64,000 nt of DNA. Origin: Candidatus Omnitrophota bacterium. GTDB lineage: Bacteria; Omnitrophota; Gorgyraeia; JAUYCX01. Within the stretch, counting starts at the first letter, position 1. Every line of letters begins with the position of its first letter. The stretch lies in assembly GCA_030692045.1 (NCBI GenBank), contig JAUYCX010000095.1, forward strand, positions 1 through 64,000. Direction: 5' to 3'. The translations under genes and the position numbers were made by a program. Below are positions 38,672 to 54,443 of this stretch, in pieces. Under the pieces are notes generated by a model, which had not been told where the DNA came from, did no database searches, and worked only from the letters and a program-made list of their open reading frames with translations.

Positions 38672-39724
38672 ATGGAATATTATTACATTACCAAAGAGGA
38701 TTTTGTTAAATTTCTGGCAAAACTTAGTAGGAAATATAAATGTTTTATTCCAGAAAAGATTAATCAAGTTGATTACCATTTAATTCCTTTTCCTGCCGAA
38801 GAACCGTTACAAATTGTTTTTAACGAATATCGCACTGTTGAGCCACTAAAGACTTATCTTTACCCTGCCCAGGAAGAAGTAGCAGAGTATTTTCAAGATG
38901 TAGACTCCTCAAAAGAGACACTACCTACATGTTTAGTCGGGGTTAAATCCTGCGACCTTTTTTCTCTTAAAATACAGGATTTTGTTTTTTTAGAAGGGGA
39001 AGCTTCTGACCCCAAATATTTAGCCAGACGAAAAAAACTGTTTATTATTTCTTCTGACTGCACAGCATTTAAAGAGGTTTGCTTTTGTTTGGCTCTTGAG
39101 ATACTTCCGCACCCCAGCGAACTATTTGATATTAATTTATCTATTCTAAATGATGGATTTATAGTTGAGGTTGGTTCTCAGTTAGGCAAGGATACGATAA
39201 ATGAGCATAATCAATATTTTAGACCTGCAAATTCCGGACAGCTTGCAGGTAGAAAGATGAAACGCGAAAAATTAATTGAGGATATAAAAAAGCATATTGA
39301 GAAGCAACATCTAGCAAAAAAGGATATTCTTCAAAGGGCTGTTAAGCAAGGTTACAATTCCAATATTTGGCCAGAGGAAATGCTTACTTGTGTAGAATGC
39401 GGCGCCTGTAATTTTATCTGCTGTACCTGCCATTGCTTTCTTTTATCTGATAATCCATCTCAAAATGTATCGAAGAGAATTAGACAGTGGGACTCTTGTC
39501 AGTATGCTAACTTTGCTAGAGTTGCCGGAGGGGCCAATCCTTTAAAGTTAAGAAGGGAAAGACTGCGAAATCGATTTATGAAAAAATTTGATTTCTTTCC
39601 AGATGTTTTAGGCTTATATGCCTGCACCGGATGTGGCAGATGCATTGAGGCTTGTCCTGCAAAAATTGATATAAGAAGAATTTTAAAAAATTTAGCTAAT
39701 GAAAAATCCCTACCTACCTATTGA
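38672..39724 (+). CDS. 4Fe-4S dicluster electron-transfer subunit (AsrA / sulfhydrogenase beta-like)
   Basis: A 350-residue cytoplasmic iron-sulfur protein. The C-terminal half carries two cluster motifs, CVECGACNFICCTCHC and CTGCGRCIEACP. The N-terminal half has the CLVGVKSCD segment and further cysteines typical of HydB/AsrA. It normally relays electrons between an FAD/NAD(P) subunit and a catalytic subunit. Here it opens a group 4 hydrogenase operon. It overlaps the next gene by 26 bp. Confidence 0.85.
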   Translation: MEYYYITKEDFVKFLAKLSRKYKCFIPEKINQVDYHLIPFPAEEPLQIVFNEYRTVEPLKTYLYPAQEEVAEYFQDVDSSKETLPTCLVGVKSCDLFSLKIQDFVFLEGEASDPKYLARRKKLFIISSDCTAFKEVCFCLALEILPHPSELFDINLSILNDGFIVEVGSQLGKDTINEHNQYFRPANSGQLAGRKMKREKLIEDIKKHIEKQHLAKKDILQRAVKQGYNSNIWPEEMLTCVECGACNFICCTCHCFLLSDNPSQNVSKRIRQWDSCQYANFARVAGGANPLKLRRERLRNRFMKKFDFFPDVLGLYACTGCGRCIEACPAKIDIRRILKNLANEKSLPTY

Positions 39725-40514
39725 AGCAGTTATCAAAGATATAAGGCTTGAGACTAATACCATAAAGACCTTTCGTATTCGTCCCAAAGAAGCCATTGAT
39801 TTTAAGACAGGGCAATTTGTGCAATTATCAGTTCCCGGATTTGGCGAGGCACCCTTTACTCCATCATCCAACCCAGCGAATAAGGATGAGATGGAAATCA
39901 CCATTATGAAAGCAGGAAAAATTACTTCAATTTTAGATGAAATTTCATCAGGTGAGAGTTTGGGCATAAGAGGGCCCTTTGGCAAGGGTTATCCAATTGA
40001 AGAATTTAAAGGAAAAGAAATTTTAATTGTAGGCGGAGGAGTGGGATTAGCGCCTTTGCGCTCGCTTTTATTTACGCTTTTTTCTTGCTTAAATGATTAT
40101 CCTAAATTGGCAATCCGCTATGGCGCACGCACTCCCTCGGATATTGTGTATAAAGAAAGTATCCCTCTGTGGCAAAAAAAAGACAAGGTAGATTTTGTGC
40201 TTACAGTTGATATAGGAGATGCAACCTGGAGCGGCAATGTGGGGTTGGTCACCACTATACTTAAGGACTTGCCTTTAGATTGTAAAGAAGCTAAGGCAGT
40301 TGTCTGCGGACCACCAATAATGATGAAGTTTACTACCTTTAAATTGCTGGACCAGGGTTTTAAGCCAGACAATATTTATTTATCTATGGAAAAGAATATG
40401 TCCTGCGGTTTGGGCAAATGCGGCCATTGCAGATTAGGCAGGTTCTACGTTTGTAAGGATGGGCCAGTCTTAACCCTGGATAAAATAAAGGATATGCCGG
40501 ATATTTGGGATTAA
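39699..40514 (+). CDS. FAD/NAD(P)-binding subunit (AsrB / sulfhydrogenase gamma-like)
   Basis: A 271-residue ferredoxin-reductase-type protein. An FAD domain (TGQFVQLSVPG, about 34-44), an NAD(P) domain (VGGGVGLAPLRSL) and C-terminal cysteines CGLGKCGHC plus a fourth Cys bind 2Fe-2S as in PyrK. It would give the hydrogenase complex a route to NAD(P)H. This is distinct from the maturase HydG at 51636 despite the similar name used in sulfhydrogenases. Confidence 0.87.
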   Translation: MKNPYLPIEAVIKDIRLETNTIKTFRIRPKEAIDFKTGQFVQLSVPGFGEAPFTPSSNPANKDEMEITIMKAGKITSILDEISSGESLGIRGPFGKGYPIEEFKGKEILIVGGGVGLAPLRSLLFTLFSCLNDYPKLAIRYGARTPSDIVYKESIPLWQKKDKVDFVLTVDIGDATWSGNVGLVTTILKDLPLDCKEAKAVVCGPPIMMKFTTFKLLDQGFKPDNIYLSMEKNMSCGLGKCGHCRLGRFYVCKDGPVLTLDKIKDMPDIWD

Positions 40515-40517
40515 GAT

Positions 40518-41012
40518 ATGAAGCGTTTATTCATTGATTTAGATAAATGTAGCGAATGTAAAGAGTGCCAAGTCTCTTGCGGTTATTTCTATCATCCTCA
40601 TAATATGGGTGTGGCATCCTTATTTGAGTTTGCCACATTCTCTACACTTTGCCGACGCTGTGAAGAAGCACCTTGTGTAAATAGTTGCTACTATGAGGCC
40701 CTAGAAAGACAGCCAGATGGAATTTTAAAACGATATCTAATGCGTTGTACGAGTTGCAAATCCTGCACAATCGCTTGTCCGTTTGGGGTGATTTTCCTAG
40801 AGTATATTCCTTACTTAAGCTCCAGTTGTGATTATTGTATTGGTATTTCAAAAACAGAGCTACCAAAATGTGTTTCAACTTGTGAGCATTTAGCAGTTGA
40901 ATTTAGAGAGATTAAGGAAGACCCTGAGAATTTTATCTTTTTTGTGGGGGATAAACTGGCAGTTAAAAGCAGAAAATGGTTTAGAGAGGATACACCATTA
41001 AAAAATAAATGA
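40518..41012 (+). CDS. 4Fe-4S ferredoxin-like electron carrier (HycB/CooF type)
   Basis: A 164-residue polyferredoxin with four cysteine groups: CSECKECQVSC, CRRCEEAPCVNSC, CTSCKSCTIACP, and a final CDYC...CVSTC. This fits four 4Fe-4S clusters as in HycB, CooF and DmsB-type subunits. It likely links the two upstream subunits to the hydrogenase small subunit. Four-bp overlap with the next gene. Confidence 0.87.
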   Translation: MKRLFIDLDKCSECKECQVSCGYFYHPHNMGVASLFEFATFSTLCRRCEEAPCVNSCYYEALERQPDGILKRYLMRCTSCKSCTIACPFGVIFLEYIPYLSSSCDYCIGISKTELPKCVSTCEHLAVEFREIKEDPENFIFFVGDKLAVKSRKWFREDTPLKNK

Positions 41013-41929
41013 ATCTAATTTTGATCTTATTTAATTTTTTAATATTTCCTGGATTTTTATTTACAGCAGTTACAGGGATGCTTGCTAGCTGGTTGGACAG
41101 AAAGGTAACTGCCAGAATTCAATGGCGTAAGGGGCCTCCTTGGTATCAGAGTTTTGCAGACTTTGTAAAACTTTTAGGAAAAGAAACTATTCTTCCTCAG
41201 GGTGCCAAATGGACATTTTTATTGGCACCGCTTTTGGGTTTGGCTAGCATTACTGTTGTGGCAACCTTAATTGGGCTTACGATGATTAATCCCAAGATTA
41301 GCTTTTTAGGAGATTTAATTGTAGTAATTTATCTTTTGATAATACCTTCTTTAGCAGTAATTATGGGAGGAGCAGCATCTGCAAATCCCTTGGCATCGGT
41401 AGGAATTTCTCGAGAGATAAAGCTTGTCCTTTCTTACGAACTTCCTTTTATTTTGGCAATTTTAGTACCAATTATAAAAACAGGTGGAGCTATTAAGATA
41501 GGCGAGATTATTAGGTATCAGATTAGCCAGGGTTCTGTTTGGTTTTCCCTTTCTGGAAGCTTGGCCCTATTTGTTGCAATTATTTGCATGCAGGCAAAGT
41601 TAGGAATTGTGCCTTTTGATATGGCAGAGGCAGATCAGGAAATTATGGCAGGCCCTTTTATTGAATATTCAGGGCCAAGCTTAGCAATGTTTAAACTAAC
41701 CCGTTGGATGATGCTTATTTGGCTACCGCTATTTTTAATTGGCCTGTTTTGGTCTTTTAGTTATAATATATTTTGGATTATTTTAAAGTATGTAGCACTT
41801 CTCGTGATTATTATATTAATCAAAAATACAAATCCCCGCTTAAGGATTGACCAGGCAATGAGATTTTTTTGGGGACCAATGACATTAATTGCCATTATTG
41901 CCGTTGTATTGGCATTATTTGGCAAATAA
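41009..41929 (+). CDS. NuoH/EchB/MbhM-like membrane anchor subunit
   Basis: A 306-residue protein with about eight helices, homologous to complex I NuoH. Family segments DRKVTARIQWRKGPPW, DFVKLLGKE, ISREIKLVLSYELPF and PFDMAEADQEI are clear. It anchors the hydrogenase peripheral arm to the ion-pumping membrane arm. Confidence 0.92.
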   Translation: MNLILILFNFLIFPGFLFTAVTGMLASWLDRKVTARIQWRKGPPWYQSFADFVKLLGKETILPQGAKWTFLLAPLLGLASITVVATLIGLTMINPKISFLGDLIVVIYLLIIPSLAVIMGGAASANPLASVGISREIKLVLSYELPFILAILVPIIKTGGAIKIGEIIRYQISQGSVWFSLSGSLALFVAIICMQAKLGIVPFDMAEADQEIMAGPFIEYSGPSLAMFKLTRWMMLIWLPLFLIGLFWSFSYNIFWIILKYVALLVIIILIKNTNPRLRIDQAMRFFWGPMTLIAIIAVVLALFGK

Positions 41930-41939
41930 AGAATATAGT

Positions 41940-42362
41940 ATGAACCTTAAACTAAAAGCCTTAACTAAATCAATCTGGGTCTATCATTTTGCCTGCACTC
42001 CCTGTAATAATTGCGATATTGAAATCTTGGATTTATTGACCCCTCGTTATGATGTTGAGCGTTTTGGCATTCAATTGGTGGGAAGTATTCGCCATGCTGA
42101 TTGTTTGTTAGTAACTGGCATACCCAACCGCAAAACTGGTGAAATGTTAAAGAGGGTTTATGCCCAGGCACCTCAGCCCTGTCTTGTGGTTGCCATTGGT
42201 AGCTGTGCTTTGGGAAAGGGTGTTTTTAGAGGTTCTTACAACAATGTGGGTTTTGTGGATGATTATGTTCCAGTGAGTGCCTATGTGCCGGGATGCCCGC
42301 CTAAGCCAGAAGCATTGATTGCGGGCGTTGTAAAACTCTTAAATAAATTAAAGGGAGGTTAA
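41940..42362 (+). CDS. group 4 [NiFe] hydrogenase small subunit (NuoB/EchC/MbhJ-like)
   Basis: A 140-residue small subunit carrying the proximal 4Fe-4S cluster: CTPCNNCD (cysteines about 18 and 21/24), GSCALG and PGCPPKPEA provide the four ligands. I chose the ATG at 41940; an in-frame start 17 codons earlier lies inside the previous gene and lacks similarity. It pairs with the large subunit at 42809. Confidence 0.88.
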   Translation: MNLKLKALTKSIWVYHFACTPCNNCDIEILDLLTPRYDVERFGIQLVGSIRHADCLLVTGIPNRKTGEMLKRVYAQAPQPCLVVAIGSCALGKGVFRGSYNNVGFVDDYVPVSAYVPGCPPKPEALIAGVVKLLNKLKGG

Positions 42363-42363
42363 G

Positions 42364-42819
42364 TTGACTCTGGATTTAATTGACGAGATTAAGGAAAGGT
42401 TAAGCGAGAAATTATCAAATTTAGAGATAAGGTCTGCAAGAAGAATTTATTCTGAAGTTAACCCTAAGAATTTAATTGATGTTGCCAAGGTTTTATTTAT
42501 GGATTTGGGCTTAAGGTTTGTTACGGCAAGCGGCGTAGATGCACCTCAAGCTTTTGAGATACTTTATCATTTCAGTTTTGATAAGACTGGCCAGATGTTT
42601 TCGCTACGGGTGTTTTTAAAAGATAAAGATAAGCCGGAAATTGAATCCATTACTCCCTTATTTAAAGCTGCAGAGTGGATAGAGCGAGAGATGCATGAGA
42701 TTTTGGGCATTGATTTTAAGAATCACCCCAATCTAAGCCATTTACTTTTAGCTGATGATTGGCCTGAAGGGGAATTTCCTTTAAGGCATAAACATAAAGA
42801 AGAAAAAAATGAGCCATAA
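42364..42819 (+). CDS. NuoC/EchD/MbhK-like hydrogenase subunit
   Basis: A 151-residue protein with the NuoC 30-kDa signature (AAEWIEREMHEILGIDFKNHP, seen as EREMHEILGI and then LLADDWP). TTG is the start codon, after GGGAGGTTAAG. It stabilises the large subunit in complex I-like hydrogenases. Overlaps the large subunit gene by 11 bp. Confidence 0.88.
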   Translation: MTLDLIDEIKERLSEKLSNLEIRSARRIYSEVNPKNLIDVAKVLFMDLGLRFVTASGVDAPQAFEILYHFSFDKTGQMFSLRVFLKDKDKPEIESITPLFKAAEWIEREMHEILGIDFKNHPNLSHLLLADDWPEGEFPLRHKHKEEKNEP

Positions 42820-43996
42820 AGTTATTATTCCTATTGGTCCATACCATCCTTTGCAGGAAGAACCTGAATTTTTCAAGCTTTATGTTGAAGGCGAAAAGGT
42901 TGTTGATATAGACATAATTATTGGTTATATGCACCGCGGCATTGAGCAACTCTCTGAAACCAAGCATTTTGAGCAGGTGACTTTTCTGGTGGAGCGCATC
43001 TGTGGCATTTGTTCCAATAGCCATCCCTTTGCCTATGTTAATGCAATTGAGGATTTGGCGCAAATTCAGGTTCCTGAAAGGGCATTGTATATTCGTTCGA
43101 TTATTGCAGAGTTGGAAAGATTGCACAGCCATCTTTTGTGGTTGGGTTTAGCCGGGCACTTTATCGGTTACAACACTGTCTGGATGTGGTCGTGGAAATA
43201 CCGCGAGCCAGTTTTAGATATTTTAGAAATGATTAGCGGTAACCGTCAGCATTATGCGATGATGAAAATAGGAGGGGCGCGTCGAGACATAAAGCAAGAT
43301 GATATTCCTAAGATTAAAAAGATGGCTGATGATTTATTGCCGGTTTTGGATATGTTTAAGGGCGCTGTAATGGATGACCCGGTTATCCAAGCCAGAACAA
43401 AGGGTGTAGCAATCCTAACCAAAAAAGAGGCAATTGAATTTAGCGTCTTAGGCCCCACTGCCCGCGCCTCAGGAGTTGATATTGATGTCAGGCGTGACGA
43501 CCCCTATGGAGCTTATGATAGAATAGACTGGAATGTTATTGTTTTAAAAAATGGGGATGTATTTGATAAATTGGTAGTCAGGGTTTTGGAGATGTATGAG
43601 TCAATTAAGATTATTCGTCAGTGTTTAAACAAGATGCCTAAAGGTGAAATTGACGCCAATGTTAAAGATATTCCTCCTGGAGAAGGTATTGGGCGTATTG
43701 AAGCACCGCGAGGGGAGTGTTTTCATTATGTGCGCTCTGATGGAACAAATAGGCCCATTCGGCATAAAATAAGAGCGCCCAGTTACATGAACGTGCCTTC
43801 TAATAAGGTCGCAGCTGTGGGGGGTACAATTTCTGATGCGGCAATATGCCTGGCAGCAGTTGACCCTTGTTATTGTTGTACCGAGAGAACCGCTGTGTTG
43901 GATAAATCTAATCACAAGAAGATTCTAAATGGTTTCGATCTTATCCGGCTTTCGCAAGAAAAAACTGAAGAAGTAAGAAAGGCTATGGGGCTTTAA
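42809..43996 (+). CDS. group 4 [NiFe] hydrogenase large subunit
   Basis: A 395-residue catalytic subunit. Both nickel motifs are intact: RICGIC near the N-terminus (C65, C68, with H72) and DPCYCCTER near the C-terminus (C354, C357). That rules out a non-nickel NuoD. The 35 residues after TER look like the peptide removed by a HycI-type endopeptidase, one of which is encoded at 50356. It reduces protons or oxidises H2 on the cytoplasmic side. Confidence 0.93.
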   Translation: MSHKVIIPIGPYHPLQEEPEFFKLYVEGEKVVDIDIIIGYMHRGIEQLSETKHFEQVTFLVERICGICSNSHPFAYVNAIEDLAQIQVPERALYIRSIIAELERLHSHLLWLGLAGHFIGYNTVWMWSWKYREPVLDILEMISGNRQHYAMMKIGGARRDIKQDDIPKIKKMADDLLPVLDMFKGAVMDDPVIQARTKGVAILTKKEAIEFSVLGPTARASGVDIDVRRDDPYGAYDRIDWNVIVLKNGDVFDKLVVRVLEMYESIKIIRQCLNKMPKGEIDANVKDIPPGEGIGRIEAPRGECFHYVRSDGTNRPIRHKIRAPSYMNVPSNKVAAVGGTISDAAICLAAVDPCYCCTERTAVLDKSNHKKILNGFDLIRLSQEKTEEVRKAMGL

Positions 43997-45685
43997 ATGC
44001 AGATAAATTTGTTATATCCTTGGTTTAGAATAGATAGGCTTAATGGCTTTATTGCTTTGTCCATAATTTTATTTTCGATTTTAACTGCGATTTATTCTTT
44101 TAGATTTATGAGAGGCAAACCTCAGCTTATCCAGTATTATTCCTGTATCCTTTTAACTGCGCTTGCTTCTTTATTCGCGGTTCTGTCTAATAATCTAATC
44201 TTACTTGTGATATTTTGGGGTTTTTTGGGGTTAACTTTGTATCTACTGATTAACTTAGGCCAGAAGGGCTGTGATCTAGCGGCAAAAAAGACCCTTGTCA
44301 TTGTGGGCGGCAGTGATATTCTAATGCTTTTGGGAATTGCAATTATCTATTTTTTAACTGGCACTTTTCAAATGGATAAAATAAGCATTTCCCTAAGCCT
44401 TAGCTACAACATAGTTGCTAATCTTGCGTATCTGTGTTTAGCCATTGCTTGTTTTGCTAAAGCAGGAGCAATGCCGTTTCATTCCTGGATTCCAGATTGC
44501 AGTGAATTTGCACCTATTCCTGTGGTGGCATATTTACCAGCTTCTTTGGATAAGTTATTAGGCATTTATCTTTTGGCTAGAATTTCCTTGGATTTATTTG
44601 TAATGAATACAGCAATGAATATATTTTTGATGGCTATTGGCGCTTTTACCATAATTGCCGCTGTAATGATGGCTTTAGTCCAACATAATCTTAAGCGCTT
44701 GTTAGGTTATCATGCTGTTTCGCAGGTAGGTTATATGGTTTTAGGTATTGGCACGGGAAATCCTATTGGCATTGCCGGCGGAATATTTCATATGTTGAAT
44801 AATTCTATATATAAACAGGCGCTTTTCTTGACTGGCGGAAATATAGAATATAAAACTGGCACAAGCGATTTAGATAAGCTTGGTGGTTTAACCAAGGCAA
44901 TGCCTGTTACTTATATTTCTTTTCTTATTGCCAGCCTTGCCATATCCGGAGTTCCTCCGTTTAATGGCTTTGTGTCCAAGTGGATGATATATCAGGGATT
45001 AATTAAAGCGTATCAAGTATCAAATATCACCTCGACTTCGCTCTGGTCAATCATTTATCAGGTATTTATTTTGTTGGCTTTAGTTGGGGCAATGTTTGGG
45101 TCTGGCCTTACATTAGCCAGCTTTATGAAATTACTTCATGCGGCATTTTTAGGTGAAAGAAGAGAGACAGATTCCCAAGATTATAAAGAGGTAAATTGGC
45201 AGATGTGGCTGCCACCTGCATTTTTAGCTATATTATGTTTAGTCTTAGGGATTTTTGCCTATGAAATCCCTTTAAGATTATTTATACTGCCTTCAGTCAA
45301 GGGTGTAGAATTTTTGGGTTTTTGGTCGCCTTCTTGGACTACATTATTAATTTTTGTGGGTTTGTTAATAGGTTTGATTATCTATTGGCTGGGCAGTTTA
45401 AAAAGTCGAGCCAGATACGATAGCTATTTTGTGGGTGGAGAAATAATGCCGATAGATTCAAGGGTTACGGGAACGCAATTTTATAACACAGTAATGGATT
45501 TTAAGCTGATTAAATTTATTTATGAAAAGGCAAAGCAAAAAACCTTTGATATCTACGAGCAGTCAAAGAATCTCGTGTTTAGCATAGATAAATTCTTACA
45601 ATATCTGCACAATGGTATTTTACCAACGTATCTAGTTTGGATACTTTTAGGCACGATTGGGTTGTTTTTGATACTCATAAGATAG
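43997..45685 (+). CDS. NuoL/MrpD-like ion-translocating subunit of the hydrogenase
   Basis: A 562-residue antiporter-like protein with about fourteen helices. The key lysine/histidine helices are visible in AKAGAMPFHSWIPD and LVQHNLKRLLGYHAVSQVGYM. It has a C-terminal extension with FVGGE and TGTQFYNTV segments as in Ech/Hyf proton channels. It is the first of two such subunits in the operon (see 46985). Confidence 0.9.
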   Translation: MQINLLYPWFRIDRLNGFIALSIILFSILTAIYSFRFMRGKPQLIQYYSCILLTALASLFAVLSNNLILLVIFWGFLGLTLYLLINLGQKGCDLAAKKTLVIVGGSDILMLLGIAIIYFLTGTFQMDKISISLSLSYNIVANLAYLCLAIACFAKAGAMPFHSWIPDCSEFAPIPVVAYLPASLDKLLGIYLLARISLDLFVMNTAMNIFLMAIGAFTIIAAVMMALVQHNLKRLLGYHAVSQVGYMVLGIGTGNPIGIAGGIFHMLNNSIYKQALFLTGGNIEYKTGTSDLDKLGGLTKAMPVTYISFLIASLAISGVPPFNGFVSKWMIYQGLIKAYQVSNITSTSLWSIIYQVFILLALVGAMFGSGLTLASFMKLLHAAFLGERRETDSQDYKEVNWQMWLPPAFLAILCLVLGIFAYEIPLRLFILPSVKGVEFLGFWSPSWTTLLIFVGLLIGLIIYWLGSLKSRARYDSYFVGGEIMPIDSRVTGTQFYNTVMDFKLIKFIYEKAKQKTFDIYEQSKNLVFSIDKFLQYLHNGILPTYLVWILLGTIGLFLILIR

Positions 45686-45686
45686 T

Positions 45687-46211
45687 ATGGAACTGCATTT
45701 ACTTTTATTATTTATGATTCTGGCGGCAATTGTAGCTGTTGAGGTAGAGGACCTGCTTTCCAGCGTAATTGCAGTTGGCGCTGTGGGGTTAGGTTTATCT
45801 TTGGCTTTTTTAATATTAAAGGCGCCAGATTTAGCCATAACGCAGTTGGTGGTTGAGATTTTATGCCTCATAATACTTATTCGCGCAACCTTAAAAAAAG
45901 ACTTGCCCGCGGTAAAAGATGGGCGCTGGCTTTTTAATACAATCTCAACTTTATTATTTATCGCTTGTTTCTTAATATTTGCCTATTTTGCCTTAAAGGA
46001 ATTGCCAAATTTTGGGGAAACTCAGATGAGAGTGGCTAAAAAATATATTGAACTGGGCTTAGGAAATACAGGAGCCACTAATATTGTGTCTGCCATAATC
46101 TTAGACTTCAGGGGTTATGATACTTTGGGAGAGGCAACTATTCTCTTTACTGCGGTAATGGGAGTTTTGGCGATAATGCGTCAAAAAGGAAGAGTCAGAA
46201 ATGAAAAATAG
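45687..46211 (+). CDS. MbhD/MbhE-like (MrpA C-terminal) membrane subunit
   Basis: A 174-residue membrane protein. The first half is a DUF4040/MbhD domain (APDLAITQLVVEIL). The second half is an MbhE-like segment (GATNIVSAIILDFRGYDTLGE). Together they match the C-terminal part of MrpA, which is split in Pyrococcus Mbh and fused here. It likely links Mrp and hydrogenase arms. Confidence 0.88.
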   Translation: MELHLLLLFMILAAIVAVEVEDLLSSVIAVGAVGLGLSLAFLILKAPDLAITQLVVEILCLIILIRATLKKDLPAVKDGRWLFNTISTLLFIACFLIFAYFALKELPNFGETQMRVAKKYIELGLGNTGATNIVSAIILDFRGYDTLGEATILFTAVMGVLAIMRQKGRVRNEK

Positions 46212-46653
46212 AGAAGAAGGCATGACCCTGATTGTAAAAACGATTACCCGACTCACTGTCGGACTAATATTACTTTATGGAATTTATATTGTTTTGCATG
46301 GACACATTAGTCCGGGTGGTGGGTTTGCCGGCGGGGTAATCATTGCACTTTCTTTTATTCATCTAACACTTGCCTTTGGGGCTAAGGTTGCTTTAAAGAA
46401 GCTAAACCAAGTGCGTGCTTCATTTTTTGAGAACTTGGGTGCAATAATGTTTTTATCTATCGCCGTACTCGGATTTGTTATCGGCAGGTACTTCTTCTTT
46501 AACTTTTTTCCAGAGAAAGGTAAACCCTTTGAATTGTTCAGTGCCGGTATAATTCCATTATGCAATATTGCGATATGCCTTAAAGTGGGTGCAGGTTTGT
46601 TCGCTATTTTTCTGGCTTTGATTTTATTTCAAAAAACAAAGGAAACGCAATGA
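46201..46653 (+). CDS. mnhB: MrpB/MnhB-like antiporter subunit
   Basis: A 150-residue four-helix protein with the MnhB signature YIVLHGHISPGGGFAGGV (about 27-44). It is part of the Mrp-type Na+/H+ antiporter module of the hydrogenase. It starts inside the upstream gene and overlaps the next by 4 bp. Confidence 0.92.
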   Translation: MKNREEGMTLIVKTITRLTVGLILLYGIYIVLHGHISPGGGFAGGVIIALSFIHLTLAFGAKVALKKLNQVRASFFENLGAIMFLSIAVLGFVIGRYFFFNFFPEKGKPFELFSAGIIPLCNIAICLKVGAGLFAIFLALILFQKTKETQ

Positions 46654-46988
46654 CAGTATATATTTTATGTTTAATTTTATTTTGTATCGGGCTTTATTGC
46701 GTATTAAGGAAAAGAAATATTATTAAAATTATTATTGGCTTGGGTATTATTGAATACGCCATAAATTTATTTTTTGTCCTCGTAGGTTATAAAATGAATG
46801 GACGTGCGCCAATATTAGCCAAAGACCAGGCAATCGCAAATATGGTTGACCCTCTGCCGCAAGCATTAGTTTTAACTTCTATTGTTATTGGTTTGGCAGT
46901 TACGGCATTGATTGTAGCTCTTGCCATAAGAATCTATGAGAAATACGGCACCTTTGATATAACCAAGATTAGGAGATTAAAGGGATGA
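46650..46988 (+). CDS. mnhC: MrpC/MnhC-like antiporter subunit
   Basis: A 112-residue three-helix protein of the NuoK/MnhC family (GLGIIEYAINLFFVLVGY, ADPLPQALVLTSIVIG type segment). It is the third Mrp subunit of the operon, overlapping both neighbours by 4 bp. Confidence 0.92.
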   Translation: MTVYILCLILFCIGLYCVLRKRNIIKIIIGLGIIEYAINLFFVLVGYKMNGRAPILAKDQAIANMVDPLPQALVLTSIVIGLAVTALIVALAIRIYEKYGTFDITKIRRLKG

Positions 46989-48475
46989 TGGTTTTGCCTT
47001 TTTTTGTAATTATTCCTCTGGGCTGTGCATTTCTTATTTCACTCTTGGGAAAAAAGATAAGCAAATTTGCTGATTGTTTAGCTAACTTAGGTAGCTTAAG
47101 TCTATTAGCACTTTCCTTATATTCAGTCGCATTAGTTAATAATTATAAAGTTATTGTTTATAAGGTTGGGGGATGGATGCCGCCCATAGGAATTTGTTTA
47201 AGCCTTGACGGCCTGACTAGTTTTATGTTAGTGACAGTAAATTTAGTAAGTTTTTTAGTGACAATTTATTCTATAAATTATATGGCAAGATACACAGATA
47301 AATACAGATTTTATACCTTATTTATGCTTATGCTTGCAGGGATGAATGGTATTATTGTTACGGGAGATTTATTTAATCTCTTTGTTTTTTTAGAAATTGC
47401 CTCAATTGCTAGCTATGCCTTGGTTGCCTTTGGAACTGAGGCAGAGGAATTAGAGGCTTCCTTTAAATATGCAATTATGGGCTCAGTTGCTTCTAGTTTT
47501 GTGCTTTTGGGGATTGCCTTACTTTATGGTTATACCTCTAGCTTAAATATGGCTGATATTGCTCAGGCTTTAAGCACAAAACCAAGCACTTGGCTTATAC
47601 CTTTTGTATCTGCTTTTTTCTTGATGGGTTTTGGTTTAAAGGCGGCGCTAGTTCCTTTTCATGCCTGGCTTGCTGATGCTCATTCGTCTGCACCAGCGCC
47701 CATATCAGCCATGCTTTCAGGGGTTTTTATCAAGACATTGGGTGTTTATGCGCTTTGTCGTATTTTCTTCAATGTCTTGGGAGCATCTTCCAAGATACTT
47801 TTTGTTTTAGTAATCTTAGGGATTATATCGCAGATTTTGGGTGCATTCTTAGCCATAGCACAGCGCGATATAAAAAGGATGTTTGCCTATTCGAGCATTA
47901 GCCAAATAGGATACATTATATTTGCTTTAGGTATTGGAACGCCTTTGGCTGTTTTGGGAGGGCTTTTTCATTTGTTTAATCATGCTATTTTTAAATCTTT
48001 ACTATTTTTGAATTCTGGTTCAATTGAATATGCAACTGGTACTCGCGACATGCAAAAATTAGGAGGACTTAACAAGCGTTTGCCTGTTACAGGATTTACG
48101 AGTTTTTTAGGCTCAATTGGCATATCTGGCATCCCTCCTTTGGGAGGATTTTTTAGTAAGCTGATTATTATAATCGCAGCAGTACAAGCCCGATACTTTG
48201 GCTTGGCGATAATTTCTGTGTTGGTAAGCATCCTAACATTAGTTTATTATTTAAAATTTCTTGGGCTAACATTTTTCGGAAAGCTCGATGAGATTTGGTT
48301 GAAGGTTAAAGAACCGCCTATTGCCATGAGATTATCAATGATAATTCTGGCAATTATTTGTACAATCAGCGGACTTTTGCTTACTCCCTTATTGAAACCA
48401 TTTCTTCATTCAGCAGTTAATGTTTTATTATTGGGAACTAGTTATAAAGACGCAGTTTTTGGAGCACTCAGGTGA
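46985..48475 (+). CDS. mnhD: MrpD/MnhD-like antiporter subunit
   Basis: A 496-residue NuoN/M-like ion-translocating protein. FEIASIASYALVAFG-type (here FLEIASIASYALV), LKAALVPFHAWLADAHSSAP and QRDIKRMFAYSSISQIGYI carry the expected charged helix residues. It is the second large antiporter subunit, probably the Na+/H+ exchanger. Confidence 0.93.
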   Translation: MMVLPFFVIIPLGCAFLISLLGKKISKFADCLANLGSLSLLALSLYSVALVNNYKVIVYKVGGWMPPIGICLSLDGLTSFMLVTVNLVSFLVTIYSINYMARYTDKYRFYTLFMLMLAGMNGIIVTGDLFNLFVFLEIASIASYALVAFGTEAEELEASFKYAIMGSVASSFVLLGIALLYGYTSSLNMADIAQALSTKPSTWLIPFVSAFFLMGFGLKAALVPFHAWLADAHSSAPAPISAMLSGVFIKTLGVYALCRIFFNVLGASSKILFVLVILGIISQILGAFLAIAQRDIKRMFAYSSISQIGYIIFALGIGTPLAVLGGLFHLFNHAIFKSLLFLNSGSIEYATGTRDMQKLGGLNKRLPVTGFTSFLGSIGISGIPPLGGFFSKLIIIIAAVQARYFGLAIISVLVSILTLVYYLKFLGLTFFGKLDEIWLKVKEPPIAMRLSMIILAIICTISGLLLTPLLKPFLHSAVNVLLLGTSYKDAVFGALR

Positions 48476-48969
48476 AAAAAAGTCAAATTATTTTGTTTTT
48501 ACTGGCACTCTTAATCTGGACGCTCCTAACTTGGCCATTAGATTTACAGCATTTAATCGTAGGTGTTTTAGTTTGCAGCTTTGTTTCTTTTATGACTGGC
48601 GACCTATTTATTAAAAGGCCGTATACGCTTAAGCATGCGAGACGATATTTGTGGTTTCTCTATTATATCCCGTTGTTTATCTGGGAATGTATTAAAGCAA
48701 ATATTGATGTCGCCTATAGAGTAATTCATCCTGATTTACCGATTAATCCCGGCATTGTTAAGGTAAAAACAAGTTTAAAATCAGATACAGCACTTACATT
48801 TTTGGCAAATTCCATTACCCTTACGCCCGGAACGATGTCAGTGGATATAGACCAAGAAAATGGCTACTTATATATTCATTGGATTGATGTTAAGCATAAA
48901 GATATTCAAAAAGCCACGCAAATAATTGTCAAGACATTTGAAGATGTCTTAAGAAGGATTTTTGAATGA
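48472..48969 (+). CDS. mnhE: MrpE/MnhE-like antiporter subunit
   Basis: A 165-residue subunit with two or three N-terminal helices and a cytoplasmic C-terminal domain (NSITLTPGTMSVDID, YIHWIDV). It starts with GTG and overlaps both neighbours by 4 bp. Confidence 0.92.
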   Translation: MKKSQIILFLLALLIWTLLTWPLDLQHLIVGVLVCSFVSFMTGDLFIKRPYTLKHARRYLWFLYYIPLFIWECIKANIDVAYRVIHPDLPINPGIVKVKTSLKSDTALTFLANSITLTPGTMSVDIDQENGYLYIHWIDVKHKDIQKATQIIVKTFEDVLRRIFE

Positions 48970-49328
48970 GCAAGAGGCTGCGTTGGTTATTAGGAGTTGT
49001 ATTCTTTATAGCAATAGCTTTATTTGCTTGGATTAATCCTTTTACCTCTTTGTTGGAATGGCAGTCGCCTTTTCTAAAACATACTTTTTATGTGCTTTAC
49101 TTATGTGGTTTGCTTTGCCTTTGGCGTATACTTAAAGGCCCAACTCCTGCAGATAGGGCTGTAGCAATTGATATCTTAGGAATTTTAGTTGTGGGTTTTT
49201 GCGCAATATTAGGAATTCCCACTGGCAGAGACTGGTACATTGATATTGGTATTGCCTGGGCTTTACAGAGTTTTATCTCTACCTTGGCTTTAGCAAAATA
49301 TTTAGAGGGAAGGGATTTTGATGAATGA
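48966..49328 (+). CDS. mnhF: MrpF/MnhF-like antiporter subunit
   Basis: A 120-residue three-helix protein with the MnhF core RILKGPTPADRAVAID and an ALQSFISTLALAKYLEGRDF end. An extra N-terminal helix (about 7-23) makes it longer than the usual 90 residues. It overlaps the next gene by 11 bp. Confidence 0.9.
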   Translation: MSKRLRWLLGVVFFIAIALFAWINPFTSLLEWQSPFLKHTFYVLYLCGLLCLWRILKGPTPADRAVAIDILGILVVGFCAILGIPTGRDWYIDIGIAWALQSFISTLALAKYLEGRDFDE

Positions 49329-49665
49329 AATATTAGGAATGGTTTTTATTGTTATAGGGCTTATCTTTGATTTTTTTGGTTGCTTAGGGTTAGTTAGGCT
49401 TCCTGATGTGTACAATAGACTTCAGGCCTCTACCAAGTGCGTCACATTAGGAACTTGCAGTATTTTGTTTGGTTTATTTTTATTCAAGGGATTTTCTGCT
49501 GCAGGAATGAAAGCAATTCTATGTATAGTTTTTATTATTCTTACAGCACCGGTTTCTGCGCATGCCTTGGCAAGAGGAGCGCATAAATCAGGGGTTAAGC
49601 TTTGGGAAAAGTCAGTTTGCGATGAGTATGCACAAGACAGAGAACAGAAAACAGACAACAGATAA
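49318..49665 (+). CDS. mnhG: MrpG/MnhG-like antiporter subunit
   Basis: A 115-residue three-helix protein with the MnhG core LVRLPDVYNRLQASTKCVTLG and TAPVSAHALARGAHKSG. The last ten residues (AQDREQKTDNR) come from AGAACAG-type repeat DNA like that inserted in hemB, so the C-terminal tail is repeat-derived. It closes the seven-gene Mrp module. Confidence 0.92.
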   Translation: MMNEILGMVFIVIGLIFDFFGCLGLVRLPDVYNRLQASTKCVTLGTCSILFGLFLFKGFSAAGMKAILCIVFIILTAPVSAHALARGAHKSGVKLWEKSVCDEYAQDREQKTDNR

Positions 49666-49715: not shown

Positions 49716-50324
49716 ATGAGATATCCTAAACTGCGAGAATTAAAAGAAGCTGTTAAGGCTTTGATTAAAGGGCCGTATACCTCAAAATTTCCTTTTCAGC
49801 CACATAAGCCATTTGAGGGGTTTCGCGGTAAACCGCAATTTTTTGAAAAGGATTGTGTGGGTTGCACTGCTTGTGTAAATGTTTGCCCATCAGGCGCCTT
49901 AAGCTTTGAGGACAGGGTTGAGAATGGCAAGGGCTCTCGATTGCTTACACGCCGCCTGGATATTTGTATTTTTTGCGGCCAGTGTCAGGCGAATTGTCTA
50001 ACAGGTGAGGGCATAAAATTAACCCAAGAGTTTGATCTTGCAATACTGGGCAAACGCGATGAATTAGCTGAAACAATTGAAAAAGAGCTGGTTCTTTGTG
50101 CAGGCTGTTTGGAGATTATTGCACCAGCTGATCAGATTAAATGGGTAGCTAAAAAATTAGGACCCCTAACTTTTTCCAATGCTTCTTTAATGCTTTATTA
50201 TCTTGCAGAGAAAGGATTATCTTACATAAATTCTTTCCTCTCTAAAGAGACTTCTGCTTCCAGAAAAGATAGGATTAAGTTACTTTGCCCAAAATGCCGG
50301 CGCCTTGCGGTGATTAAATCCTAA
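49716..50324 (+). CDS. NuoI/MbhN-like ferredoxin subunit of the hydrogenase
   Basis: A 202-residue protein with two 4Fe-4S motifs: CVGCTACVNVCPSGAL and CIFCGQCQANC. The second lacks the usual proline. C-terminal CAGC and CPKC pairs may bind an additional metal. It should carry electrons to the small subunit, as MbhN and HyfH do. The placement after the Mrp genes is typical of neither Mbh nor Ech. Confidence 0.85.
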   Translation: MRYPKLRELKEAVKALIKGPYTSKFPFQPHKPFEGFRGKPQFFEKDCVGCTACVNVCPSGALSFEDRVENGKGSRLLTRRLDICIFCGQCQANCLTGEGIKLTQEFDLAILGKRDELAETIEKELVLCAGCLEIIAPADQIKWVAKKLGPLTFSNASLMLYYLAEKGLSYINSFLSKETSASRKDRIKLLCPKCRRLAVIKS

Positions 50325-50355: not shown

Positions 50356-50844
50356 ATGTTAAAACAAAAGACGAATTCTATTTTTCAGAAATTAGAGGCA
50401 GAATTAGAGGGCAGGACGATAATCGTGGGTATGGGCAATACCTTAAGACAGGACGATGGTTTTGGTTGTTGCTTGGCTCAAAAATTAAAGAATAAGATAA
50501 GACTTAAGGTGTTGGATGTAGGTAGTGTTTTAGAGAATTTCTTTGGCGAAATTATAAAAGAAAATCCTAAGACGGTCTTGCTTATCGATGCATTAGATTC
50601 TCGAAATTCCGTAGGTGAACTTAGTCTTTTGAATTCAGAAGAGCTTAAAACAAGCAATTTTTTTCTTTCGCACAATATTTCGCCAAGCTTGCTTTTTGAT
50701 TTTTTAAAGGAAAATACTAATGCAAAGCTTTATTTACTGGCAATTCAGCCTAAGGCAATTGGTTTTGGAGAGGAAATGACATTTAAGATAAAAGAGCGTT
50801 TGGAAGAATTAAGAAATTGGTTTTTAGATAAATACCCAATATGA
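50356..50844 (+). CDS. hydrogenase maturation endopeptidase (HycI/HyaD family)
   Basis: A 162-residue protease that removes the C-terminal peptide of the [NiFe] large subunit after nickel insertion. GMGNTLRQDDGFG, the aspartate in LLIDALD and the histidine in LSHNIS are the metal-site residues. It fits the 35-residue C-terminal extension of the large subunit at 42809. It overlaps the ThiF-like gene by 4 bp. Confidence 0.9.
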   Translation: MLKQKTNSIFQKLEAELEGRTIIVGMGNTLRQDDGFGCCLAQKLKNKIRLKVLDVGSVLENFFGEIIKENPKTVLLIDALDSRNSVGELSLLNSEELKTSNFFLSHNISPSLLFDFLKENTNAKLYLLAIQPKAIGFGEEMTFKIKERLEELRNWFLDKYPI

Positions 50845-51620
50845 GCAAAACAGAAAGATTAATTAAGACTTCAAGTGCAAAAATAGAATTAACCAACTTA
50901 GAATTAAAACGTTATCATCGTCAGATGCTTTTAGATGATTGGGGGCTTAAAGGTCAGCAGAAATTAAAACAGGCCTGTGTATTTATTGCCGGAGCAGGCG
51001 GCTTAGGCTCACCAGTTGCAATATATTTAGCAGCCGCAGGAGTAGGCAGGCTTCGCATCTGTGACTACGATACGTTGGAGGTGTCTAATCTTAACCGACA
51101 GATATTGCATACACATACCCGCATAGGAAAATATAAGGCCTTAAGCGCCAAGATTACCTTAAAAAAGATAAATCCGCATGTTAAAGTGGAGGCATTTTCT
51201 AATAAGATAGACGAGAAAAGCATTGCGGAATTGGTGGGAGGAGCTTCAGTAATTATCGACTGTATGGATAATTTCTTAACCCGTTATGTTCTAAATGAAT
51301 TTGCCATAAAAAATAGACTGCTATTGGTGCATGGCAGTATCTGGGGTTTGGAAGGAAGAATTAGCGCAATCCATTTTCCTAAAACTGCTTGTCTAGCTTG
51401 TATTTTTCCCCAACAGCCGCCCTCTGGAGTTTTTCCAGTGTTAGGCTCAACGCCAGGCGTTATTGGATGTCTTCAAGCAACTGAGGTTATAAAGTATTTG
51501 GTTGGCATTGGTAAAAATCTTTATAATCAATTGCTTATTTTTGATGGGTCTGATATGGGTTTTCAAAGATTAACTGTAAAGGTTGATCCAAATTGCGCAG
51601 TTTGCTCAAAGTATAGATAG
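50841..51620 (+). CDS. ThiF/MoeB/HesA-family E1-like enzyme
   Basis: A 259-residue adenylyltransferase paralogous to the one at 13241. The [10 protein letters not shown] loop, SNLNRQILH, and zinc pairs CLAC and CAVC are intact. No beta-grasp carrier is encoded beside it. It lies between the hydrogenase endopeptidase and HydG, overlapping the former by 4 bp. It could activate a carrier for sulfur delivery or serve hydrogenase maturation; this is unproven. Confidence 0.85.
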   Translation: MSKTERLIKTSSAKIELTNLELKRYHRQMLLDDWGLKGQQKLKQACVFIAGAGGLGSPVAIYLAAAGVGRLRICDYDTLEVSNLNRQILHTHTRIGKYKALSAKITLKKINPHVKVEAFSNKIDEKSIAELVGGASVIIDCMDNFLTRYVLNEFAIKNRLLLVHGSIWGLEGRISAIHFPKTACLACIFPQQPPSGVFPVLGSTPGVIGCLQATEVIKYLVGIGKNLYNQLLIFDGSDMGFQRLTVKVDPNCAVCSKYR

Positions 51621-51635
51621 AAAATATAAAAATTT

Positions 51636-53009
51636 ATGGAACAAAAGATAATTAATCAAGACCAGATTCAAGATATTTTATCTCGGGCAGAAAAAGTATC
51701 CCCCAAAACCATCCTTAATATTCTTAAAAAAGCCAGGAAGAAGCAGGGATTGAACTTAGAAGAAGCAGGCTTTTTGTTGATACTTAATGAGCCACAATTA
51801 AAACAAGAATTATTTAATACTGCAAGTTTTATTAAAGAAGAAATTTATGGAGAAAGACTGGTGTTTTTTGCGCCTTTGTATATTTCAGATTTTTGTGTTA
51901 ATGATTGCAAATATTGTAATTTTCACATAAGTAACCAGATTTTAAGGCGTCTTCGCCTAAGTTTAGAAGAAATAGAAGAGCAAACAAAAATTCTAATCAA
52001 TATGGGTCATAAGAGGATTCTTTTGGAATGCGCAGAAGACCCCATAAATTGCGATATTGATTTTGTGATTAAAGCAATCGAAAGAATTTATGCAGTTGCC
52101 GCTCCTAAGGGCAATATCCGTCGGATAAATGTGAATATTGCTGCTACTTCCAGAGAGAATTATCGCAAATTAAAGTCTGCAAAAATTGGCACCTATCAGC
52201 TATTTCAGGAAACCTATCATAGAGAAACTTATGAAAAGCTGCACAACGGCCCAAAGCAGGATTACGAAAGACAAATAACTGCTCATTGTCGGGCATTTGA
52301 AGCAGGCTTGGATGATTTAGGAATTGGGGTTCTATTTGGTTTGTATGATTGGCGTTTCGAGGTATTGGCGCTTATTTCCCATGCCCAGTTTTTGGATAAA
52401 AAATATGGTGTGGGGCCTCACACGATTTCTGTGCCGCGGTTTAGACCAGGACCAACCATTAATTTTACACCCGCTCAACGAGTTTCTGATAATGATTTTT
52501 TAAAGTTGATTGCCATCTTAAGATTGGCAGTTCCCTATACAGGCATGATAATTTCTACTCGTGAAAGCCCGCAGATAAGAAGACAAGCATTTAAAATTGG
52601 AATATCTCAAGCATCGGCTGCTTCTCAGACTTCCACTGGCGGTTACGGTAAAGTGAATAGCCAACCGCAATTTGAACTTGAGGATAAGCGTTCGCTTGAA
52701 GAGGTAATTAAGGATGTGGTGAATGAAGGATTTCTACCCAGTTTCTGCACTGCCTGTTATAGGTCAGGCCGCACAGGAAAGGAATTTATGCGCCTTTCAA
52801 AACCTGGGCAAATTCATAAGTTTTGTCGGTCAAATGGCCTTTTAACCTTTAGTGAATATCTTGAGGACTTTGTAACCGATGGCCTTAAGAAAAAGGCGCA
52901 GATACTAATTAAATCTTATTTGGAAAAAATAGAAGAGAAAGAGTTACGCAAAGAAACTGAAAAGCGTATTTTAAGCATTAAGCAAGGTGAAAGGGATTTA
53001 TATTTTTAA
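51636..53009 (+). CDS. hydG: HydG, tyrosine lyase of [FeFe] hydrogenase maturation
   Basis: A 457-residue radical-SAM enzyme that cleaves tyrosine to yield CO and cyanide bound to iron. The SAM cluster motif CVNDCKYC (C87, C91, C94) and the C-terminal auxiliary cluster C371-x2-C374-x22-C397 (in CTACYRSGRTG) are both intact; the latter distinguishes HydG from ThiH. FFAPLYISDF is typical. It sits in a [NiFe] hydrogenase operon, and neither HydF nor a [FeFe] hydrogenase is in the window. Confidence 0.92.
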   Translation: MEQKIINQDQIQDILSRAEKVSPKTILNILKKARKKQGLNLEEAGFLLILNEPQLKQELFNTASFIKEEIYGERLVFFAPLYISDFCVNDCKYCNFHISNQILRRLRLSLEEIEEQTKILINMGHKRILLECAEDPINCDIDFVIKAIERIYAVAAPKGNIRRINVNIAATSRENYRKLKSAKIGTYQLFQETYHRETYEKLHNGPKQDYERQITAHCRAFEAGLDDLGIGVLFGLYDWRFEVLALISHAQFLDKKYGVGPHTISVPRFRPGPTINFTPAQRVSDNDFLKLIAILRLAVPYTGMIISTRESPQIRRQAFKIGISQASAASQTSTGGYGKVNSQPQFELEDKRSLEEVIKDVVNEGFLPSFCTACYRSGRTGKEFMRLSKPGQIHKFCRSNGLLTFSEYLEDFVTDGLKKKAQILIKSYLEKIEEKELRKETEKRILSIKQGERDLYF

Positions 53010-53262
53010 TCAGCGCACAACTTATGGAGTCGTAATTCTTCTTTTTAGAGACATAAGTTGTATGCGCGAATTAAACCCAGCACTTATTTTACTGAGAGTG
53101 CTTATATTCTGAAAAAAACAGTTATTTTTGAATAATCCCTTTACTCTATTGACACTGCCGTTGGTAAAATAAGTGCTGGGTCAAATTCAGACACGGCCTT
53201 CGGCCTATAACTTATGTCGTCCGCCACAAATATTGGCGGACTCCATAAGTTAAGTGCTCATT
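53005..53262 (+). repeat. family A composite hairpin element, copy A6
   Basis: H1 (53005-53075) has TTTAAT/ATTAAA-type arms, a CA/GA loop (one base changed from GA), GCGC, CAACTTATG/CATAAGTTG and a GA/GA loop. H2 (53076-53180) is CCCAGCACTTATTTT with its complement. H3 (53181-53262) carries two inserted modules, GGCC-TTC-GGCC and TCCGCCA/TGGCGGA. It starts in the hydG stop codon and ends two bases before the HypC-HydE ATG. Confidence 0.85.
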
Positions 53263-53264
53263 CG

Positions 53265-54443
53265 ATGTGTTACTCCATACCCGGAAAAATCTTAGAAATA
53301 AAAGACAATATTGTTACAGTTGACTATTTTGGCGAAAGAAAAAAAGCCAAAAATGAATTCTTAGACTTGTCAATTGGTGACTATATTTATGCCCAGGCAG
53401 GATTTGTCATACAAAGGATTACAGCTAATGAAGCAAGCGCCTCATTAGAGACATGGAAAGAGCTTTTTTTTAAACTGCGCGAAATTGATTTGCGCCTGGC
53501 CAAAGCACCTAAAAACTTATATCAGATTGCCAACAATATTCGTCAAAAGCACTTAGGCAATTCTTGTTGTGTGCATGGGATTATAGAATTCTCCAACTAC
53601 TGCCGTAATGATTGTCTCTACTGTGGTTTAAGAAAAAGCAATTCCTCACTTTCCCGTTACAGAATGAGCCCTGATGAAATAATTGCAGCTGTAGAATTGA
53701 GTGCCAAAGAATTGGGATTTAAGGCCTTAGTTTTGCAATCAGGAGAAGACCTCTATTATGACGATGATATGCTTGTGGGAATCATTAAAGGAATTCTAAA
53801 AAAAAATGCAGTCTTTTTAAGTCTAAGTATTGGAGAAAAAGATATTGTTACATACAAAAAACTTTATGAGGCAGGTGCAAGGGGGCTGCTTTTACGTTTT
53901 GAAACGAGTAACCCATCTTTATATTCCAAGATGCGGCCAGGTTTTTTTCTAGAAAATCGTCTCGAGCTAATTAAACAATTACGCAAAATGGGTTTTTTAA
54001 TTATGACTGGTTTTCTTATTGGCTTGCCCCAACAAAGTGAGCAGGATATTTTAAAAGATATTGAACAAACCCATTCTTTAGGGGCTGATATGTTTTCCTT
54101 CGGTCCGTTTATTCCTCATCCGCAAACTCCTTTAGAAAATTCCGTTTCTCCTTCGCTTGGTTTGGTTTTAAACACGATTGCCCAAGCACGCATTCTTAAT
54201 CCCGAGGCAAAAATTCTCGTAACCACCTCTTTAGAAACGCTGGACAAAGAAAATGGAGCCAGGCTCGGCCTTCTTTCAGGCGGAAATTCTTTGATGATTA
54301 ATCTAACACCAGAAAAATACCGCAAGCTCTATGAGATTTATCCTAACCGCGCTGGAATTGATTTGGATCTGAAAAAGAGGATTAATCAGGTGGTTGAATT
54401 ATTGCATTCCCTTGGCAGAGCACCTACGGATTTAGGGATTTAG
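53265..54443 (+). CDS. hydE: HypC-HydE fusion protein
   Basis: A 392-residue fusion. Residues 1 to about 78 form a HypC/HupF domain starting MCYSIPGKILEI, with the essential Cys2. At the place of the conserved HypC histidine (H51 in E. coli) there is Gln44 in AQAGF. Residues about 82-392 are HydE: SAM cluster CRNDCLYC (C113, C117, C120), FSNYC start and GPFIPHPQTPL. HydE is the radical-SAM maturase acting on the iron-cysteine product of HydG. I chose the ATG at 53265 because HypC needs Met-Cys; an upstream ATG reads repeat DNA. HypC belongs to [NiFe] maturation, so the fusion bridges two pathways. Confidence 0.92.
   Translation: MCYSIPGKILEIKDNIVTVDYFGERKKAKNEFLDLSIGDYIYAQAGFVIQRITANEASASLETWKELFFKLREIDLRLAKAPKNLYQIANNIRQKHLGNSCCVHGIIEFSNYCRNDCLYCGLRKSNSSLSRYRMSPDEIIAAVELSAKELGFKALVLQSGEDLYYDDDMLVGIIKGILKKNAVFLSLSIGEKDIVTYKKLYEAGARGLLLRFETSNPSLYSKMRPGFFLENRLELIKQLRKMGFLIMTGFLIGLPQQSEQDILKDIEQTHSLGADMFSFGPFIPHPQTPLENSVSPSLGLVLNTIAQARILNPEAKILVTTSLETLDKENGARLGLLSGGNSLMINLTPEKYRKLYEIYPNRAGIDLDLKKRINQVVELLHSLGRAPTDLGI

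Follow-up and report, generated by a model that had tools for sequence, protein, structure and literature searches.

The 64 000 nt window analysed here (contig JAUYCX010000095.1, positions 1 to 64 000, from a Candidatus Omnitrophota bacterium) contains a single gene that encodes a HypC domain joined to a HydE domain. This fusion probably stands at the centre of a route to the [NiFe] hydrogenase cofactor that does not depend on HypD, HypE or HypF. The comparative evidence that the fusion, together with HydG, replaces these three proteins in [NiFe] hydrogenase operons is strong, and the chemistry by which they would do so is predicted. The features found in the window are listed in Table 1.

An earlier note, made from the letters of the window alone, had described a full HypC domain with a Met-Cys start, fused to HydE. 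The fusion, its coordinates and its start hold. The Pfam model PF01455 (HupF_HypC) spans residues 1–64 end to end with 56.9 bits (cut-off 28.5). TIGR00074 (HypC) gives 47.5 bits, 0.5 under its cut-off of 48, and the stretch containing only HypC matches solved HypC structures (2z1c, 3.6e-9). The NCBIfam HydE equivalog, TIGR03956, matches residues 79–382 with 255.7 bits, barely above its cut-off of 254.6, and structures of Thermotoga maritima HydE match this part with a best value of 6.6e-71. AlphaFold2 predicts a single well-packed model for the whole protein (mean pLDDT 95.1, pTM 0.92). All 69 aligned fusions match both the HydE and the HypC models (TIGR00074 at E≤1e-3). An upstream in-frame start exists at 53214, but the conserved N-terminus is MCY. 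This alternative start falls inside the 255 bases that separate HydG from the fusion (window 53010-53262), a stretch packed with short inverted repeats (25-nt arms, 92 % complementary). A probe from this stretch (53221-53252) has no other copy in the window.

Table 1. Features of the [NiFe] hydrogenase operon and of the HypC-HydE fusion in the window
Feature	Position	Strand	Basis or remark
ShyB, ShyC, Fe-S subunit, NuoH	38672..41929	+	
Small subunit, NuoB type	41889..42362	+	
Group-4 [NiFe] hydrogenase large subunit	42809..43996	+	RICGIC, EAPRGE, DPCYCC, C-terminal tail
Mrp/antiporter membrane module of group-4 [NiFe] hydrogenase	43997..49665	+	
HycF-like Fe-S subunit	49716..50324	+	PRK12387, 112 bits, under cut-off of 204
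HycI-type [NiFe] hydrogenase maturation protease	50356..50844	+	TIGR00072, 93.5 bits, cut-off 47.45
ThiF/MoeB-like E1	50841..51620	+	PF00899, 5.2e-70
HydG, tyrosine lyase	51636..53009	+	TIGR03955, 529.3 bits, cut-off 312; 4wcx alignment
HypC-HydE fusion ORF	53265..54443	+	392 aa; kept as single ORF in relatives
HypC domain, residues 1-64, Met-Cys start	53265..53456	+	PF01455, 2.3e-15
Cys2 codon of HypC domain	53268-53270	+	
Gln44 codon, at place of HypD-contacting HypC histidine	53394..53396	+	AQ(G/S)G-type signature
HydE domain, residues 79-382	53499..54410	+	TIGR03956; top Foldseek matches all T. maritima HydE
Fusion-specific Cys101-Cys102-x-His104	53565..53576	+	Alignment of 69 sequences
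Radical-SAM [4Fe-4S] motif C113-x3-C117-x2-C120	53601..53624	+	Translation; invariant

The fusion is widespread. Full-length copies were found in 15 of the 117 relatives from the same class, and across the phylum 58 of 384 genomes have full or near-full-length copies. Scanning GTDB contigs returned 210 relatives, and of the 80 best loci at least 78 contain the fusion ORF. The fusion loci span more than 10 phyla including archaea, the hosts being Omnitrophota, Elusimicrobia, Planctomycetes, Lentisphaerae, Margulisbacteria/Saganbacteria, Spirochaetes, Chlamydiae, WOR-3, Firestonebacteria, Patescibacteria and several DPANN archaea. These hosts are draft, mostly metagenome-assembled genomes, and some bins may be misnamed, though it is unlikely that all are. 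The fusion HydE domains form one clade (SH-aLRT 100) with a long stem, inside which the phyla are intermixed. No second stretch matching the HypC part was found in the host genome of the window, and the plasmid records contained just ordinary HydE-type matches that were less than 60 % identical.

The draft state of the host genomes, and an estimated contamination of 7.5 % for the window genome, could suggest a chimeric gene, an assembly error or a decaying remnant without function. This explanation has a negligible probability and is refuted by conservation: the frame is open and alignable in at least 78 loci drawn from many separate assemblies, and Cys2, Gln44, Cys102, His104 and the cluster cysteines are invariant. 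These loci, together with the full-length fusions in the class, also rule out that a sequencing error has joined two genes.

In the 69 aligned fusions, M1, C2, Y3, I5, P6, Gln44, C102, H104, C113, C117 and C120 are invariant, and C101 is kept in at least 90 %. Position 44, the place of His44 in Thermococcus kodakarensis HypC, is Gln in all 78 fusions examined, and when the conserved HypC histidine (residue 51 in Escherichia coli, 44 in T. kodakarensis) was tested for as a feature it was missing from the fusions. In E. coli HypC, this histidine forms part of the interface with HypD, and replacing it weakens HypD binding (PMC9002611). Gln44 fits a HypC that works without HypD, because the canonical histidine serves the HypD contact and the genomes with the fusion lack HypD. 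The exchange had already been pointed out in the earlier note and is confirmed; its further suggestion, that iron may be held differently, is possible, yet loss of the HypD contact is better grounded. In the HydE part, Cys101-Cys102-x-His104 aligns with Val51-His52-x-Arg54 of canonical HydE (T. maritima numbering, derived by PDB alignment), and the unfused HydE of relatives, for example G005 and G013, retain His-x-Arg.

Gene absences were determined by HMM searches of whole genomes at curated cut-offs, with control genomes positive, in a set of 22 genomes made up of the 15 with the fusion and seven with an unfused HydE. Neither HypD nor HypB turned up in any of the 22 genomes (HypD in 0 of the 15 with the fusion). 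HypE and HypF were also not found over the cut-offs in this set, where there were just sub-threshold matches of at most about 70 bits, which were not counted as genes. Of the 15 fusion genomes, only G038 and G064 have HydA and a HydF over its cut-off; the other 13 have neither. The HydF matches present in every genome were discounted, as they are sub-threshold, cover part of the GTPase domain and appear likewise in the controls. In the host of the window, HypB, HypD, HypE and HypF were not found over the cut-offs, and HydF and HydA are missing as well. The proposal in the earlier note that the fusion physically links the two maturation systems is not supported, since the host has neither system complete.

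Among those of the 117 relatives that carry the fusion or have a [NiFe] protease, HypD is present in 0 of 15 genomes with the fusion versus 45 of 48 without it (Fisher 6.7e-12, with kinship ignored). G054, G080 and G096 have HycI and neither a HypD match nor the fusion. Two of these, G054 (L190, L191) and G080 (L192, L193), contain a [NiFe] hydrogenase together with HycI, and in G054 a 1238-aa frame ending in a HypE-like (AIRS_C) domain lies near a group-3b operon. In G029 and G057, radical SAM proteins next to HycI were also considered and dropped, as by sequence motif they resemble biotin synthase.

All 15 fusion genomes contain [NiFe] hydrogenase genes, and 14 of them a maturation protease. 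Where the contig shows it, the fusion adjoins a [NiFe] hydrogenase of group 4 or group 3b and HycI; elsewhere, the fusion and HydG form a small separate unit. In the window, the fusion is the last gene of a group-4 operon with the order ShyB/ShyC, Fe-S subunit, NuoH, small subunit, NuoC, large subunit, Mrp module, HycF, HycI, ThiF-like E1, HydG, fusion. In five relatives of the Hyp type (G024, G077, G041, G067 and G007), the group-4 operon reads HycF-HycI-HypA-HypF-HypC-HypD-HypE. In fusion genomes, HydG and HypC-HydE occupy the segment after HycI in otherwise alike group-4 operons, with or without HypA. The arrangements include HycI-HypA-fusion-HydG (L149 and G283), HycI-HypA-fusion (G146), HycI-HydG-fusion (G001) and HycI-ThiF-HydG-fusion (the window and G021). 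In G164, HypC, HydE and HydG are joined in a single 915-aa ORF (L217:7651-10398), right behind HycI-HypA in a group-4 [NiFe] operon. HypD, HypE and HypF were not found near the fusion in any of the 80 named loci.

The large subunit of L149, which lies in a fusion operon, shares 84–85 % identity with those of G024 and G041, from Hyp operons, and 68 % with that of the window, and the large-subunit tree requires at least three switches between fusion-type and Hyp-type operons. Large subunits beside the fusion retain RICGIC and DPCxxC, both CxxC motifs for Ni-Fe, and the C-terminal tail. When residues separating fusion-served from Hyp-served large subunits were sought, no difference was found in the metal-binding or EAPRG motifs.

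Regular linkage to the fusion is confined to hydrogenase genes, HydG and HypA. The ThiF/MoeB-like E1 was rejected as a core part; it adjoins the fusion just in the window, G021 and G091 within the class and in 4 of the 80 named loci, and is probably an occasional neighbour. Genes for a Rex-like regulator and RibD recur close to some fusions (L163, L127, L134 and others) and are probably lineage-specific neighbours. HypA-like genes are present at 22 fusion loci and HypB at few, among them L111 and G221, where it lies beside the fusion. The nickel arm of maturation thus seems to be separable and partly kept.

Within the class, HydG was found in 14 of the 15 fusion genomes, and it shares the locus of the fusion in 56 of the 80 named loci. 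The one fusion genome in which it was not found is G004 (96 % complete); in five others it lies away from the fusion, and the remote HydG of G058 has genes for HypA and a ZIP metal transporter close by. The HydG of the window carries CX3CX2C, the C-terminal CX2CX22C and a GPHTISVPR segment. CX3CX2C and the C-terminal CX2CX22C are present in 56 of 63 fusion-linked HydGs, and the remainder are a CTAGYRC variant. This variant, with CTAGYRC and not CTACYR at the C-terminal cluster motif, is seen in L135, L138, L141, L143, L146, L149 and L150, and further in L070, L073, L188, L189 and L195, among both fusion-linked and local [FeFe]-linked HydGs. The idea of HydG as a single co-evolving clade was rejected, because the fusion-linked HydGs are scattered over several positions in the tree.

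As the HydE domain exceeds the cut-off of the model for [FeFe] HydE, the fusion might be read as an [FeFe] hydrogenase maturase with an added HypC domain, with HydA elsewhere in the genome as its client. HydA is indeed found at a few loci, for example L163, and G038 and G064 have both HydA and HydF. However, these two genomes own a second, unfused HydE, the other 13 of the 15 fusion genomes contain neither HydA nor HydF, the fusion HydE domains stand apart as a single long-stemmed clade and the neighbours of the fusion are [NiFe] genes. We consider this reading very improbable.

In the route that we propose, HydG would cleave tyrosine to form a mononuclear Fe(CO)x(CN)(Cys) unit, which the HydE domain would take over and process by radical SAM chemistry. 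Instead of dimerising the unit for HydF, HydE would hand it to HypC within one chain. Cys2 of HypC would receive the unit and deliver it to the apo large subunit, with no HypD scaffold and no HypE/HypF cyanide source. Nickel would be inserted next, HypA being kept in many loci, and HycI would then trim the tail. We infer the chemistry, the transfer from the HydE to the HypC domain and the ligands of the finished cofactor. [NiFe] enzymes carry one CO and two CN ligands, versus two CO and one CN in the HydG product, so that ligand exchange or another source of CN is needed unless the cofactor differs. The swap of one CO for a second CN would be the weakest step of the route. Parts of the scheme have precedents: HydG forms [Fe(cys)(CN)(CO)2]-, which is passed directly to HydE (PMC12752695), the T. 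maritima HydE structure 7o1t, among the Foldseek matches, contains an Fe(CO)2CNCl species, and HypC-type chaperones bring Fe(CN)2CO to the large subunit (PMC8692609).

Two alternatives concern the ligands. The fusion and HydG might give just the CO, or CO and Fe, of the [NiFe] cofactor, with cyanide coming from an unrecognised source. A 2025 review, which considers six Hyp proteins necessary and leaves HydG unmentioned, calls the anaerobic source of CO the most pressing open question (PMC12134894), and in addition the HydG product has one CN and not two (PMC12752695) and a ThiF-type E1 is present in some operons. Yet HydG yields CN plus CO, which makes a scheme without an extra cyanide source the simplest, and the lack of any further gene regularly linked to the fusion also argues against this alternative, which appears improbable. 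The second, for which the chance is slightly better but still small, is that HydG and HypC-HydE make another cofactor, for example Fe(CO)2(CN), in an enzyme merely resembling a standard [NiFe] hydrogenase. The number of CO and CN ligands on the known HydG product (PMC12752695) would agree with this, and the fusion-specific Cys101, Cys102 and His104 suggest an altered HydE chemistry. It is conceivable, at the same low level of expectation, that the finished cofactor differs, the HydG-derived unit being inserted as Fe(CO)2(CN) with inverted CO/CN ligation and perhaps held en route by the Cys101/Cys102 pair. However, the large subunits retain the four cysteines and EAPRGE and are up to 85–86 % identical to Hyp-served ones, so the pocket looks standard. 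Because the pocket is unchanged, the standard Fe(CO)(CN)2 set is expected, and a HypD/HypE/HypF-independent route to this set remains the preferred reading.

Compared with known systems, the fusion system shares with the canonical Hyp pathway (HypA-F and a HycI-type protease) the client enzymes, the Met-Cys start of HypC, HycI and HypA-like genes. It differs in having no HypD scaffold and no HypE/HypF cyanide synthesis, in the exchange of the HypC histidine for Gln and in using HydG and HydE instead. With the [FeFe] H-cluster pathway (HydE, HydF and HydG) it shares the radical-SAM HydG, mostly with the C-terminal cluster motif, and the HydE fold and cluster motif. In contrast to that pathway, it is without HydF and usually without HydA, has a [NiFe] client, has Cys-Cys-x-His for Val-His-x-Arg and has HydE joined to HypC. 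HypX, a formyl-THF decarbonylase of the aerobic CO route, is likewise dedicated to the CO ligand of [NiFe] hydrogenases (PMC12134894). It works alongside the Hyp proteins and uses formyl-THF under O2, whereas the fusion system would use radical SAM enzymes and, as we infer, tyrosine, without HypD, HypE or HypF. Though every part comes from a known family, defining features of both known pathways that were tested for are lacking in the fusion system. The earlier note knew of no described protein of this kind, and we likewise found no description of a HypC-HydE fusion or of Hyp-free maturation in the openly licensed literature, an unseen report being possible. Two papers on Omnitrophota that describe the hydrogenase groups do not contain the word "maturation".

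In this system, nature has repeatedly replaced HypD, HypE and HypF with enzymes of already known CO- and CN-forming chemistry, and the question of the CO source becomes directly testable in a defined system. It also suggests a compact cassette of two genes, or of one gene as in one genome, for engineering [NiFe] hydrogenases. As the fusion passes the HydE cut-off, it may be misread as a sign of [FeFe] hydrogenase in genomes of candidate phyla and DPANN archaea. The findings suggest that many uncultured bacteria and archaea assemble the iron-CO-cyanide part of [NiFe] hydrogenase by an undescribed route.
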